Source: Clostridia bacterium (GTDB lineage Bacteria; Bacillota_A; Clostridia; Oscillospirales; CAG-272). From it: a DNA stretch of 10,806 nt. The position numbers were made by a program, and so were the translations under genes. The stretch lies in contig JAGDAM010000165.1 in assembly GCA_017959485.1 (NCBI GenBank), forward strand, positions 1-10,806, written 5' to 3'. The notes below the pieces were generated by a model that did no database searches, was not told where the DNA came from, and saw nothing but the letters and a program-made list of their open reading frames with translations. Shown here piece by piece: positions 86 through 10,806 of the stretch (position 1 is its first letter; every line of letters starts with the position of its first letter).

Positions 86-162
86 TGGCGTCCCCGATTG
101 GATTCGAACCAACGGCCTGTCGCTTAGGAGGCGACCGCTCTATCCTGCTGAGCTACGGGGAC
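86..162 (-). tRNA. tRNA-Arg (anticodon CCT)
   Basis: The reverse complement folds into a complete cloverleaf of 77 bases including an encoded CCA. It has a 7-bp acceptor stem GTCCCCG/CGGGGAC, a D stem GCTC/GAGC, an anticodon stem GTCGC/GCGAC with loop CTCCTAA, a 5-base variable region AGGCC, and a T stem GTTGG/CCAAT with loop TTCGAAT, discriminator G, then CCA at 86-88. The loop positions put CCT at the anticodon, which reads the AGG arginine codon. It is transcribed away from the nif3-murB-dnaE operon, with its own promoter and terminator, so it is a single-gene unit. Confidence 0.97.
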
Positions 163-6925: not shown

Positions 6926-9694
6926 GTGGAAAAAAAGATAAACTGGCCGGAAGAACTGCTGCGGGCGTGGAAAACGCTTCTGCGCGGCGCCGGACTTATA
7001 GTTAAAGTCGTCGCAGACGTGCTCATCACCCTTTTGCTCATCGTTTCGCTGGCCGGGGTAATCGTCGGATGCGCTCTGACGATTTATATAAAGAATTACG
7101 TCAATACCGAAATCGACGTTTCGCTCTTCCGGATGACGATGGCGGGCGGCACGACGGCCACCACTGTTTACTATTACGATTTTGAGGACAGAATCAACCG
7201 CGTCGGAGAAGTCAAAGCGCTGGAAGGCGAAAAGATCTCCGCCGACAAGGAGACCGTCTACGTAAAGCTCGATCAGATTCCCGACGATCTGAAATACGCG
7301 GTTATCGCGATCGAAGACAAGCGCTTCGAGACGCATCAGGGCGTTGACTGGAAGCGAACTTTCGGAGCCGCGCTAACCTTCCTCACCGGAAGTTCGTCGT
7401 TCGGCGGTTCGTCGATCACTCAGCAGCTTATCAAAAACATAACCGGCGAGGACGACTACACCATCCAGCGTAAGATACAGGAGATTTTCTGGGCTCTCGA
7501 CCTTGAAACCAAGATGGACAAGGACGAGATACTCGAACTGTATCTGAACAAAGTCAACTTCGGCGGAAGCAACTACGGCGTTCAGTCGGCGGCTTACAAT
7601 TACTTTTCGAAAGACGTTTCCGAGCTTACGCTTCTCGAGTGCGCGGCTATAGCCGGGATAACGCAGAATCCGTCGTATTACAATCCGATCAATTACCCGG
7701 AGCACAACGAGGAGCGCCGCGGATGGATCCTCTACGAGATGCTCGACCAGGGAAGGATCTCGAGGCGGAGATACGACGAGGCGATGAACTCCGAGCTCGT
7801 CATCAAAACGCCTTCCGAGAATGAAAAGCTTACCGAACAGCAGGCAAGCGGAATCATCTCCTGGGGAACCGAATATGTCATCTCGGAGATAGTGTCCGAC
7901 CTTGTTTCCGAAAAGGGGATGACGGTCAGCGACGCCGAGAAGCTGGTGTACAGCGGCGGTCTTAAGATTTATACGACGATTGTCCCCGAGATCCAGCAGC
8001 TGCTTGACGACGTCTTTTCAAACGAAGACAACTTCCCGGACAAAGACGCGGGATACAAGGCGCAGTCCGCGGGAATAGTGATGGATCCCTACACGGGCGA
8101 CATACTGGGAGTCGCCGGCGCCAGGGGACAGAAGACGGGCAACCGGCTCTGGAACTACGCCTGGCACACCAAACGTCCCTCGGGTTCGGCAATCAAGCCG
8201 CTGTCGGTCTACGCCCCGGCACTTGACTCCGGATCTTACACCTGGGCGAGCGTGCTGGACGACACGCCGGTAAACTATACCGTTTCCTTCGACGGCTGGC
8301 CGCGAAACTCCGAAACATTCGACGGCGGAAACAGATATCTCGGACTGACGAATATCTACAACGCCGTCCGGCTGTCTCTCAACACCATACCTGTGAAGCT
8401 GCTCAACCGCACCGGTCTGCGCCGCTCCTTCAACTTCTGTTACGATACGCTCAATATGAAGAGCCTGATCGAGTACTCGGAACTCGCTGACGGAACCGTG
8501 GTCTCGGATATCGGACAGGCGGCGCTCGGGCTCGGACAGCTGACCTACGGCGTTAAAATCGCCGAACTCACCGCGGCGTATTCGATTTTCCCGAACGACG
8601 GCGTTTATAACGATTATCACGCGTATCTGAAAGTCACCGACAACGCCGGAAACGTCATACTCAGCCACGACGTCGAAAGCACTCTCGCCATCAAGGCGGA
8701 GACCGCCGAGATCATGAACAAGATGCTTTCCCGTGTCATCTCGGCTCCCGGCGGTACCGCCTACGGAACACCGGGCACAGAGTCGGGCGTTCAGTTCGGC
8801 AATATCACCGGAATCGACGTAGCCGGTAAGACCGGTTCCGCCGGCGATTACTACGACCGCTGGTTCGTCGGATACACTCCCTATTACCTTTGCGGACTCT
8901 GGTTCGGTTATCCTCAGCAGAAAGCGTGGAAGGACGCCAACCCGACCCTCCGGCTGTTCGACAAGATCATGCTTCCGCTTCACGAGGAGTACGCCGCCCT
9001 CCCTGACGAGCAACGCGAGCATTTCACCGATTCGGATCAGATAATCACCGCGACCTACTGCAAGGATTCCGGCCTTCTGATCACCGACGCCTGCCTGCTC
9101 GATCCGCGCGGCAGCCGCGCCGAGACCGGATACTTCATCAGGGGAACCGAACCCACCGAAAAGTGCGATACGCACGTAGTGTTCAACTACGACAGCGTGA
9201 CCGGAGGCCTCTGCCTTCCCGGATGCAACTGCCCCGAAGAGAATATCACACGCGTTTCGCTTGTCCGGGTCAACAAGTCCGACCGCCTTTTCGACGCAAA
9301 CAAATACCTTCCCATTCTCGACGCTCAGTACACCTGGTTCGATCTGACGCCGGGAGTCAAACCCTACTCGTCGCACAAGAGCTGGCCGTATTACACCAAT
9401 ATGCGTTTTGTCGCCGGCACCGACCCCAAGACGGGGAAAGCGAAAACGATCGTCCTGACTCTTCCGTACACTTCGAGCTACCGCGATTCGCAGCACGTCC
9501 AGTTCAACGCCACCTGCAACGATCACTTCGACGCCGATCTCTGGGCGTCTCTCAGCGCGGCGTACGTCGCTTCGGTGTCGCCGATGTCGGATATTCTTTC
9601 ATCGCGAAGTCTCTCCGATTCGGCGTCGTCGGTGTCGCTCGAACGGATAGGACTGCTCTTTAGGGCGAAACCTCTCTCAATCGCCGCAAATTAG
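6926..9694 (+). CDS. Bifunctional class A penicillin-binding protein (glycosyltransferase/transpeptidase)
   Basis: This 922-residue wall synthase polymerises lipid II into glycan strands and cross-links the stem peptides outside the membrane. A short basic cytoplasmic tail (1-22) is followed by one membrane segment (about 23-55). The GT51 domain carries EDKRFETHQGVD (130-141, catalytic E130), GGSSITQQLIKN (160-171), RKIQEIFWALDLE (182-194) and KDEILELYLN (199-208). The transpeptidase domain has all three active-site motifs: SAIK (421-424, acylated serine S421), SLN (484-486) and KTGS (635-638). After about residue 700 comes a C-terminal region with seven cysteines (712, 723, 747, 763, 767, 769, 864), including CLPGCNC, and a serine-rich end. 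It starts at GTG with a strong ribosome binding site and has its own promoter. I see no terminator directly behind it. It is PBP1a/PonA-like; the exact subclass is not assigned. Confidence 0.95.
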   Translation: MEKKINWPEELLRAWKTLLRGAGLIVKVVADVLITLLLIVSLAGVIVGCALTIYIKNYVNTEIDVSLFRMTMAGGTTATTVYYYDFEDRINRVGEVKALEGEKISADKETVYVKLDQIPDDLKYAVIAIEDKRFETHQGVDWKRTFGAALTFLTGSSSFGGSSITQQLIKNITGEDDYTIQRKIQEIFWALDLETKMDKDEILELYLNKVNFGGSNYGVQSAAYNYFSKDVSELTLLECAAIAGITQNPSYYNPINYPEHNEERRGWILYEMLDQGRISRRRYDEAMNSELVIKTPSENEKLTEQQASGIISWGTEYVISEIVSDLVSEKGMTVSDAEKLVYSGGLKIYTTIVPEIQQLLDDVFSNEDNFPDKDAGYKAQSAGIVMDPYTGDILGVAGARGQKTGNRLWNYAWHTKRPSGSAIKPLSVYAPALDSGSYTWASVLDDTPVNYTVSFDGWPRNSETFDGGNRYLGLTNIYNAVRLSLNTIPVKLLNRTGLRRSFNFCYDTLNMKSLIEYSELADGTVVSDIGQAALGLGQLTYGVKIAELTAAYSIFPNDGVYNDYHAYLKVTDNAGNVILSHDVESTLAIKAETAEIMNKMLSRVISAPGGTAYGTPGTESGVQFGNITGIDVAGKTGSAGDYYDRWFVGYTPYYLCGLWFGYPQQKAWKDANPTLRLFDKIMLPLHEEYAALPDEQREHFTDSDQIITATYCKDSGLLITDACLLDPRGSRAETGYFIRGTEPTEKCDTHVVFNYDSVTGGLCLPGCNCPEENITRVSLVRVNKSDRLFDANKYLPILDAQYTWFDLTPGVKPYSSHKSWPYYTNMRFVAGTDPKTGKAKTIVLTLPYTSSYRDSQHVQFNATCNDHFDADLWASLSAAYVASVSPMSDILSSRSLSDSASSVSLERIGLLFRAKPLSIAAN

Positions 9695-9735: not shown

Positions 9736-9763
9736 AACGATCGGAGACTGTTCGGTGTGTCAC

Positions 9764-9805
9764 GCCGCGCCGCGACCCGAAAAACGTTCCGGCAATTCGC
9801 GCGGC
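9764..9805 (+). other. Stem-loop in the lipoprotein mRNA leader
   Basis: GCCGCGC (9764-9770) pairs perfectly with GCGCGGC (9799-9805) across a 28-base loop. A second pairing, GATCGG (9739-9744) with CCGATC (9811-9816), would close around it, but the predicted transcription start falls within its left arm. The ribosome binding site at 9825-9829 lies outside both stems. I recognise no known riboswitch. Confidence 0.35.
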
Positions 9806-9835
9806 AGATCCCGATCTCAAAAACGGAGGATAAAA

Positions 9836-10324
9836 ATGAATAAGAGAACCGTCAGAATCATTGCAGCCTGCCTTTCCGTGCTCATGCTTGCCGGAGTCCT
9901 TGCCGCGTGCGGCGAGCCCGCGGTGCCCAAACTTACCGTCTACATCGAGATTGACGGAGTGGTGACTGAGGACGACAAAGACATTATGATCCTTAACCGC
10001 AACTTCGTTGTTGAAGAGGGAACGACCGCATTCGACGCCGTCGCCCGTCTCTGCGAAGAGAGAAAAGCCACTTACGAGGTCGATATGGACGGAATGTTCA
10101 TGAGTTTCTCGAACGAGACGAAAAAACTCACGCCGCCCGCACAAAAGGCCCTTTCCAACGGCAACGTGATCGTTTACAATTTCGTCTGGTCGCTTAACGG
10201 CGTCCTTAAGTCGGCTACGCAGGCCAATCCCGACGGAGTCGCGATGAAGGACTACGTCCTCAAGGACGGAGACAAGGTTGTGATTTACGTTTACGGTGAG
10301 GAAGTAACTCCCTCGGCTTCGTAA
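9836..10324 (+). CDS. Small secreted lipoprotein with DUF4430-like domain
   Basis: The 162-residue product has a lipoprotein signal peptide: MNKRTVR, a hydrophobic stretch (8-24), and the lipobox LAAC with C25 as the predicted lipidated cysteine. The mature part looks like one DUF4430/transcobalamin-C-like domain. It has a beta-strand start (PKLTVYIEID, 31-40), EEGTTAFDAVARLCEE (60-75) matching the family's 'G-T-hydrophobic-DAL' helix, then FVWSLNGVL (116-124) and YVLKDGDKVVIYVYG (140-154), matching the family's 'W-x-x-x-vNG ... l-x-dGD-x-v-x-x-Y' pattern. Such domains occur in surface proteins and near cobalamin or transport genes, but nothing nearby fixes a ligand. GGAGG (9825-9829) stands 6 bases before the ATG at 9836; upstream in-frame starts would destroy the signal peptide. 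It is a single-gene unit with its own promoter and terminator. Confidence 0.82.
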   Translation: MNKRTVRIIAACLSVLMLAGVLAACGEPAVPKLTVYIEIDGVVTEDDKDIMILNRNFVVEEGTTAFDAVARLCEERKATYEVDMDGMFMSFSNETKKLTPPAQKALSNGNVIVYNFVWSLNGVLKSATQANPDGVAMKDYVLKDGDKVVIYVYGEEVTPSAS

Positions 10325-10341
10325 TCGTCCTGTGAATAAAC

Positions 10342-10380
10342 GGCTGTCAGAGGCCCTTGCGGGTTTCTGACAGCCCTTTT
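10342..10380 (+). terminator. Intrinsic terminator after the lipoprotein gene
   Basis: A 15-bp uninterrupted stem (10342-10356 with 10361-10375, two internal G-T wobbles) closes a TTGC loop and is followed by CTTTT. It begins 17 bases after the lipoprotein stop codon. The T-run is short, but the stem is long and GC-rich. Confidence 0.9.
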
Positions 10381-10384
10381 GATA

Positions 10385-10422
10385 TGCGTCAGTCAAAACA
10401 GCCGGATGTTTTGACTGACGCA
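10385..10422. repeat. 16-bp perfect inverted repeat beside the hairpin array
   Basis: TGCGTCAGTCAAAACA (10385-10400) is the exact reverse complement of the arm at 10407-10422, with a 6-base centre GCCGGA. No T-run follows on either strand, so it is not a standard terminator, and the gene's own terminator ends 5 bases earlier. It could be a protein-binding site, a transcript-end hairpin, or the boundary of the repeat element to its right. Confidence 0.8.
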
Positions 10423-10429
10423 GATGAAT

Positions 10430-10564
10430 TCGCCGTTCCGGCGAGCTGAGTTCGGCTTCGCCGAGCTAAATTTGCTTCGCAAGCTAAATTCGGCATCGCC
10501 GAGCGAAATTATGCTGCGCATAGCTAAATTCGCCGTTCCGGCGAGCGAAATTCGGCTTCGCCGA
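10430..10564 (-). repeat. Hairpin-repeat array, first block (7 units, minus orientation)
   Basis: Seven small stem-loops follow one another: 10430-10444, 10452-10464, 10472-10482, 10490-10502, 10510-10522, 10530-10544 and 10552-10564. Stems are 4-6 bp with 3-base loops (TTC in five, ATC and TGC in one each). They are separated by AGCTAAATT or close variants (AGCGAAATT, AGCTGAGTT). Stem sequences differ (TCGCCG/CGGCGA, TCGGC/GCCGA, TTGC/GCAA, TATGC/GCATA) but pairing is kept in every unit. On the minus strand the loops read mostly GAA and the spacer reads AATTTAGCT, the same orientation as the second block has on the plus strand. Confidence 0.85.
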
Positions 10565-10589
10565 GCTATAAGGTCGAATTTAATGTGGC

Positions 10590-10806
10590 TGCCGCGAAGC
10601 GGCAATTTAGCTATCGAGCGAAGCGAGATAATTCAGCTGCCGCAAAGCGGCAATTTAGCTGTCCCGAAGGGACAATTTAGCTATCGAACGAAGTGGATAA
10701 TTCAGCTGTCCCGAAGGGACAATTTAGCTATCGAGCGGAGCGAAACATTTTAGCTGTCCCGAAGGGACAATTTAGCTATCGAGCGAAGCGAGATAATTTA
10801 GCTGCC
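10590..10806 (+). repeat. Hairpin-repeat array, second block (9 units plus a partial, plus orientation)
   Basis: Stem-loops lie at 10590-10604, 10612-10630, 10638-10652, 10660-10674, 10682-10699, 10707-10721, 10729-10747, 10755-10769 and 10777-10795, with a partial unit starting near 10803 and cut by the window end. Spacers are AATTTAGCT or variants (AATTCAGCT, CATTTTAGCT). Two types mostly alternate: A, a perfect 6-bp stem with GAA or AAA loop (TGCCGC/GCGGCA or TGTCCC/GGGACA); and B, TATCGAGC-GAA-GCGAGATA, whose stem holds two opposed G-A mismatches. The unit at 10729-10747 is degenerate. The two blocks together occupy the gene-free 10425-10806; the long reading frame across them is a by-product of the repeats. 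Confidence 0.88.

Follow-up and report, generated by a model that had tools for sequence, protein, structure and literature searches.

Short dispersed repeats with a 7-bp unit are known from cyanobacteria as STRR, and the intervening sequences (IVS) of 23S rRNA are excised by RNase III. As portrayed in parts of three papers, REPINs and REP-RAYT systems are miniature inverted palindromic interspersed repeats that occur in many copies per genome and are linked to a partner gene whose lineages match repeat classes (PMC3116915, PMC2817692, PMC3733652); the REP itself is a short palindrome with a GTAG or CGTC tag (PMC3733652). Excerpts of PMC4990558 describe the 23S rRNA IVS as a selfish element lodged within one of the 23S helices, report tandem heptamers upstream of its gene in Coxiella, and give the S23/IVP proteins no known function as of 2016. 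PF05635 is said, in part of a further text, to resemble Avd of diversity-generating retroelements (PMC10053308). Dispersed heptamer repeats of Nostoc and Xanthomonas (PMC4692102) and of Beggiatoaceae (PMC4679880) are described without a mechanism in the available portions of those two papers, where the terms S23, "intervening" and "four-helix" have 0 occurrences; the Xanthomonas heptamers mostly comprise four units, often in convergent pairs (PMC4692102). Searches of the open-access PMC literature turned up no account of a link between IVPs and repeat words.

The window, by which we mean the whole 10,806-nt stretch of DNA analysed here, carries a single copy of a repeat element at 10422-10806, truncated at the window's end. 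The features of the window are given below.

86-162, minus strand: tRNA-Arg(CCT), ordinary window content.
6926-9694, plus strand: 922-aa frame, penicillin-binding-protein-like by eye, ordinary window content.
10338-10379, plus strand: terminator-like hairpin followed by TTTT, downstream of the open reading frame at 9755-10324 (from inverted repeat and sequence).
10385-10422, strand unassigned: long palindromic hairpin adjoining the outermost word of the short-hairpin arm (from its inverted repeat; similar hairpins adjoin other copies).
10422-10552, minus strand: short-hairpin arm, with AGCTAAATT and variants between six hairpins, TTC loops, and degenerate outermost words (from the word/hairpin parse).
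10553-10581, minus strand: centre, consisting of the hairpin CGGCTTCGCCG and AGCTATAAGGTCGAATTT (minus strand AAATTCGACCTTATAGCT), kept across the family (from the element parse).
10582-10806, plus strand: long-hairpin arm, with AATTTAGCT and variants, nine complete hairpins and a tenth cut short by the window's end (from the word/hairpin parse).
10424-10753, plus strand: 109-aa open frame spanning the array, judged spurious (from the ORF list and repeat spacings).

A first-pass annotation had reported about sixteen stem-loops separated by a conserved 9-base word, and this central observation is confirmed and was, if anything, understated. The window copy contains 16 complete mini-hairpins, 7 in 10431-10563 and 9 in 10591-10794, and a further one begins at the window's end. 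Allowing at most one mismatch, AATTTAGCT has 15 matches in the window, 14 of them within 10464-10803 and one isolated outside the array at position 9688; 200 dinucleotide shuffles gave a mean of 1.40 and a maximum of 5 (0/200 reached 15). Folding 10424-10806 as single-stranded DNA yielded z = -4.73, with an equally good fold in 0/100 shuffles. The copy is not the single tandem array that had been proposed. Word orientation flips around 10553-10581, such that 10422-10581 is reverse-complement and 10582-10806 forward, which makes the element an inverted one, with two arms about a distinct centre. In its canonical orientation, which for the window copy is the minus strand, a long-hairpin arm is followed by the conserved centre (AAATTCG..AGCT) and a short-hairpin arm. 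The window copy is expanded, with more units than the usual copy. The first-pass annotation had missed this inverted layout, together with the 7-nt core, the IVP partner gene and the wider class of word-specific arrays described below.

We rejected the idea that the array derives from coding sequence, because hairpin-plus-word spacings of 22 and 26 nt break the 109-aa frame. Frames of this kind may get annotated as proteins in MAGs. Contigs start or end inside arrays in the window (at 10806) and in loci L014, L015, L025, L067, L080 and L086, and the repeats seem to break assemblies. The window holds no IVP gene. At gathering score, Rfam gave no match within the element in the window copy or in 12 element loci (the window returned tRNA only, the 12 loci tRNA and T-box only), in agreement with the suggestion of a new repeat family.

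Further copies, sought with a word-hairpin(GAA)-word pattern, came to at least 117 stretches, nearly all from gut or rumen Clostridia MAGs, and viral contigs gave one match. Loci L006 and L056 and the viral L118 were rejected as members, since they lack hairpins and look like chance matches. The family has a common anatomy. Under a tolerant parser the commonest layout, seen in 35 of 94 parses (some elements being counted on both strands), comprises three long hairpins, the centre and three short hairpins, with 4+4 words, and the centre begins AAATTCGC in 54 of 67 complete elements.

The hairpins covary. Across the 67 distinct complete elements, pairing in the six outer hairpin slots, scored over up to four outer pairs, reaches 84, 72, 93, 92, 97 and 99%; controls with exchanged 3' halves have means of 46-52%, or 81% in the last slot, and 0/1000 shuffles match the observed value in each slot. 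Structure is kept over sequence, as had been surmised from the window alone. Of the outcomes named beforehand as refuting the first-pass annotation, namely an absence of other copies, a lack of covariation or membership of an already named family, none appeared in the tests run. Slot lengths cluster across the 67 elements. Loops vary, GAA and TTC being the commonest beside CTTG, TTT, CAAG, GTCA, GCA, ATA and others, and neither the GAA loop nor its GCGAAGC heptamer holds up as an essential feature. The 9-mer does recur, but only part of it is the conserved core. Its end bases usually form the closing pair of the adjoining hairpins (369 T-A, 13 G-C, 1 C-G and 19 unpaired, n = 402 in 67 elements), and because they belong to that pair and change together, the core is the 7-nt ATTTAGC. 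The word is nearly invariant within the family.

Palindromes perfected by template switching could leave such pairing as a by-product, with no selection for the fold. The terminal hairpin in genome G026 has this character, changing in both arms jointly between copies that are 94-97% alike elsewhere. We nonetheless find the idea scarcely credible as an account of the family, given the slot-specific lengths, the compensation in closing pairs, the conserved words, and the recurrence of identical anatomy with other words. Cross-arm word pairing was also considered and rejected: in its minimum-energy fold, L096 does join left words to right words through successive four-way junctions, but the word variants come without compensation (0 compensated changes among 268 levels, with 23 left and 14 right variants and both sides varied at 2). 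Uncompensated words fit sites that are read singly. Judged by their sequences, the words appear to behave as recognition sites, near-invariant per family, switched all together between IVP lineages and uncompensated across arms, and the hairpins appear to behave as structure, being paired, sequence-free and length-kept.

The most recurrent gene family beside the elements is PF05635, the 23S rRNA-intervening-sequence protein (IVP), at 8 of 108 element loci; the next family reaches 3 loci. This census covered 833 ORFs within 1.2 kb of the 108 loci among the matches listed, after 9 of 117 loci with fewer than four clustered words were dropped. The neighbour gene matches PF05635 at E 1.6e-28 (8/117 loci among the matches listed), and its solved relatives 2rld (E 3.9e-32) and 2gsc (E 0.019) have five chains per entry. 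No transposase family and no RAYT recurs within 1.2 kb of the elements. IVP genes are present in 25 of 26 element genomes, at 1-8 each, versus 0 of 14 control genomes; in G013 the element is present and no IVP match was found. When IVP loci were taken by protein match alone, 13 of 30 had a family element adjoining the gene, six of these 13 being places already seen. A scan of the viral contig collection confirmed no IVP relative there, and 0 of the 38 IVP loci searched (18 and 20) gave an rRNA match. Linkage between element and IVP is thereby shown at the level of gene neighbourhood and genome content.

In all eight gene-bearing loci the element lies 11-43 bp upstream of the IVP 5' end, with the gene reading away from it. 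Such placement would suit an operator or landing pad for IVP autoregulation, in which case the gene-less copies would owe their spread to slippage or recombination in the host, or to a transposase as yet unseen, and not to IVP. The promoter-like sequence noted by eye between array and gene in L134 and L120 points the same way; it also means that the array need not belong to the IVP message. We consider autoregulation unlikely, since many gene-less copies have the full anatomy and in other lineages the gene is flanked by heptamer arrays on either side, the plasmid words there having been picked after inspection. The reading that we prefer is an array recognised, and helped to spread, by its own IVP.

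Many other IVP loci have the same anatomy with different words, such as AGTGATATT/AATATCACT and ATGAAATA/TATTTCAT. The locus set comprised 84 of 89 protein matches and 28 loci from a class draw (196 genomes, 64 with IVP), of which 3/112 with less than 300 nt upstream were dropped, and was scored for at least 3+3 exact inverted 7-mers; a one-mismatch version was too loose, with shuffles nearly as high, and the exact version was used instead. Upstream, inverted 7-mers accompany 33/109 IVPs, compared with 0/1090 shuffles and 1/297 other genes, and within -400 to +250 they accompany 50/109, compared with 1/1090. The class draw alone passed the upstream test at 3/27 loci, a low figure because the best-scoring matches fall in an array-less clade. 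The exact test detected no array at any of the 16 IVPs of one deep clade, 2 of which do show period 7. Between words other than AGCTAAA, the inserts are again hairpins (84% paired in 24 loci, against a mean of 45% and a maximum of 51% for exchanged halves). Within the class draw, the element pattern occurs in 6 of the 7 genomes that carry a close IVP, and the remaining one has a decayed array (L168); among genomes without a close IVP, 9/189 match it, and one of the nine, G158, looks like chance. G001, G006 and G013 had already entered the sample through the first pattern search.

Words and IVPs diverge in parallel. A tree of 106 IVPs, with 6/112 left out for length or internal stops and many forks unresolved, places the IVPs with GCTAAAT-type words in one clade of 20 rows (SH-aLRT 94); three of these rows, L165, L168 and L172, stem from the class draw. 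Word similarity correlates with IVP identity in 49 upstream arrays (Mantel r 0.66, 0/2000 permutations) and in 16 flanking arrays (r 0.36, 2/2000 permutations). Among the upstream arrays, 91% of pairs whose IVPs are more than 75% identical have words that match at 6 or more of their 7 letters; at 40-60% identity the share is 2%. Word and protein thus show co-divergence; co-inheritance of array and gene could alone produce the correlation.

Beyond the window family, in which the 7-nt cores are split by hairpins, plain tandem 7-bp units are present in plasmid and gammaproteobacterial IVP arrays. We examined IVPs on 10 of 26 IVP-bearing plasmid records (Spirochaetota, Bacteroidota, Bacillota, Cyanobacteriota and Chloroflexota) and on both phage records, and saw arrays in 12/12 by eye and in 7/12 by the exact 3+3 test. 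With the array word of each plasmid chosen by eye after inspection, all 90 of 90 same-word spacings of 40 nt or less in the plasmid loci were multiples of 7; the period-7 test was passed by 8/10 plasmid loci. Among 30 gammaproteobacterial loci, drawn from 274 genomes of one class (57 with IVP) and controlled by other lags only, period 7 occurs beside 20/30 and periods 5, 6, 8, 9 and 10 beside 0/30, with at least 3+3 inverted words beside 6/30. In Clostridia, period 7 is found beside 11/96 array-clade IVPs and 2/16 others, and other lags beside none. Control ORFs in L001-L117 show period 7 near 8/400, perhaps marking gene-less heptamer arrays, and no other period from 4 to 11. Repeats at IVP loci thus follow a period-7 rule. 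Several plasmid arrays stand with their IVP in defence-like gene sets: between cas2 and cas1 in L297 (Anabaena cylindrica plasmid), between hsdS and hsdR in L293 (Monoglobus plasmid), and between helicase and methylase genes in L300 (Chlorohelix plasmid).

Two heptamers could be followed across genomes. Doublets of TGGTGAA, a word beside the G469 IVP, number 64 in G469 and 134 in G467; G277 has 1, and a further 17 IVP genomes have none. The G467 IVP's own word is the near-identical TAGTGAA. Doublets of GAGTTCT number 67 in G344; G356 has 5, every one at its IVP, G260 has 1, and 17 genomes have none. These counts bear on the idea that the IVP gene is a hitchhiker within or beside arrays kept by another factor. 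Its appeal lies in the 100 of 108 element loci, among the matches listed, that have no adjoining IVP, and in G013, with elements and no IVP match. It is improbable all the same, because the word tracks IVP lineage and because G469 and G344 carry same-word arrays both beside the IVP and dispersed.

Element copies are dispersed at unrelated sites. Exact word-hairpin-word matches, of which one element may yield several, number 1-158 per genome across the 26 element genomes, and the reversed pattern gives 0; these genomes exclude the window's own species, and their best protein identity to the window is 47%. Four copies in G026 (L251-L254) are 94-97% alike at unrelated sites and end in AATTnCAGTTT..AAACTGnAATT. 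As in a MITE, these four G026 copies have inverted repeats at their termini and are near-identical although their sites are unrelated; the AATT at both ends may be terminus or target. To the right of the array, the terminal hairpin of L251-L254 differs in both arms jointly, as if whole stems had been swapped at once. The L022 unit of about 362 bp recurs at 91-95% in G018, G009 and, on other contigs, its own genome G010. With near-identical copies at unrelated sites, the first-pass comparison to interspersed REP/MITE repeats was apt. In one subfamily (L018, L022, L024, L028, L034, L043, L044, L083, L084, L094, L099, L111 and L114) a conserved imperfect palindrome of about 85 bp lies to the left of the element. 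In L147, a terminator-like sequence and the array start (about 40 nt) occur both upstream and downstream of the IVP, possibly an insertion duplication.

Some copies sit inside terminators. In 7 of 100 elements the two flanks pair over arms of 10 bp or more, placing the unit in an intrinsic terminator loop, compared with a mean of 0.3 and a maximum of 1 over 10 swaps of flanks (3/103 elements with repeated flanks were dropped). Such placement is limited to a subset; most elements lack it. Together with the terminator that precedes the window copy, it might suggest that the host keeps the element to terminate transcription or to stabilise 3' ends. This too is very improbable. The gene end that carries the L114 copy is empty in two relatives, copy number varies widely inside one class, and neighbouring genes show no clear orientation bias (10 convergent, 5 divergent and 24 tandem, a weak count from a crude ORF caller). 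A count of 28/94 elements inside ORFs was discarded, since masked bases kept frames open in that caller.

We therefore return to the preferred reading, which we hold to be fairly probable: the array is a miniature mobile repeat copy whose words would be recognised by its own IVP and which the IVP would help to copy, with binding, bound form and copying mechanism all inferred. Its working parts would be two opposed sets of the 7-nt word (ATTTAGC/GCTAAAT), most often 4+4, spaced by small hairpins able to fold once the DNA is single-stranded or transcribed. Each IVP lineage would recognise its own word, and an IVP may grip several words together on a folded single strand, whether ssDNA or RNA. 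That grip could promote copying into new sites, some of them hairpin loops, and gene-less copies would be mobilised in trans. As IVP has no known catalytic function, another enzyme would have to act. The same principle may hold for the simpler form, in which plain tandem heptamers stand in inverted orientation around the IVP gene.

A broader proposal, which we advance tentatively and with less assurance, is that a class of mobile DNA found across bacteria is recognised through IVP/S23 four-helix-bundle proteins. Each lineage would have its own 7-nt word in inverted sets. The arrays would take two forms: simple tandem heptamers, which would account for some of the heptamer repeats long known without explanation, and, in Clostridia, a form with hairpins between the heptamers. 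Gene-less copies would spread in trans, some into terminator-type loops, and rRNA intervening sequences would be a special case. The word- and period-7-specific IVP link brings together two puzzles, the function of S23/IVP and the dispersed heptamer repeats. If the proposal is true, it describes a widespread mobile-repeat system with natural word-protein pairs from which a recognition code could be deciphered, and, with IVP being a bundle protein that has no known catalytic function, a mobile-element class recognised in this way would be of a new kind. It may also explain why contigs end inside arrays and false open frames run across them, as in the window.

The comparison with known systems places the element under none of REPIN-RAYT, the 23S rRNA IVS or the heptamer repeats. 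Its IVP open frame, limited to gene-bearing copies, is the PF05635 frame of the 23S rRNA IVS, and a subset likewise sits in hairpin loops, here of terminators; unlike the IVS, the family is interspersed, has hairpin-spaced word arrays and shows no rRNA match at 38 IVP loci. With the dispersed heptamer repeats it shares a 7-nt unit and dispersal, and its 4+4 inverted sets recall the four-unit arrays and convergent pairs of Xanthomonas; it differs from the Nostoc, Xanthomonas and Beggiatoaceae repeats in having hairpins between words. Unlike at diversity-generating retroelements, no gene family other than IVP recurs beside the elements. Like REPIN/REP-RAYT, it consists of inverted palindromic repeats, is multicopy, and is tied to a partner gene whose division into lineages parallels that of the repeats, here of the words. 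The partner differs, being IVP, and eight words with several variable hairpins replace the two short conserved palindromes found there; by eye, the parsed elements are built of the 9-mer and of hairpins that vary, with no GTAG- or CGTC-tagged palindrome seen. The element would work like REPIN-RAYT with a different partner. It would belong to the broad type of miniature mobile repeats that have a linked partner, and there is a real chance that it represents a new kind.
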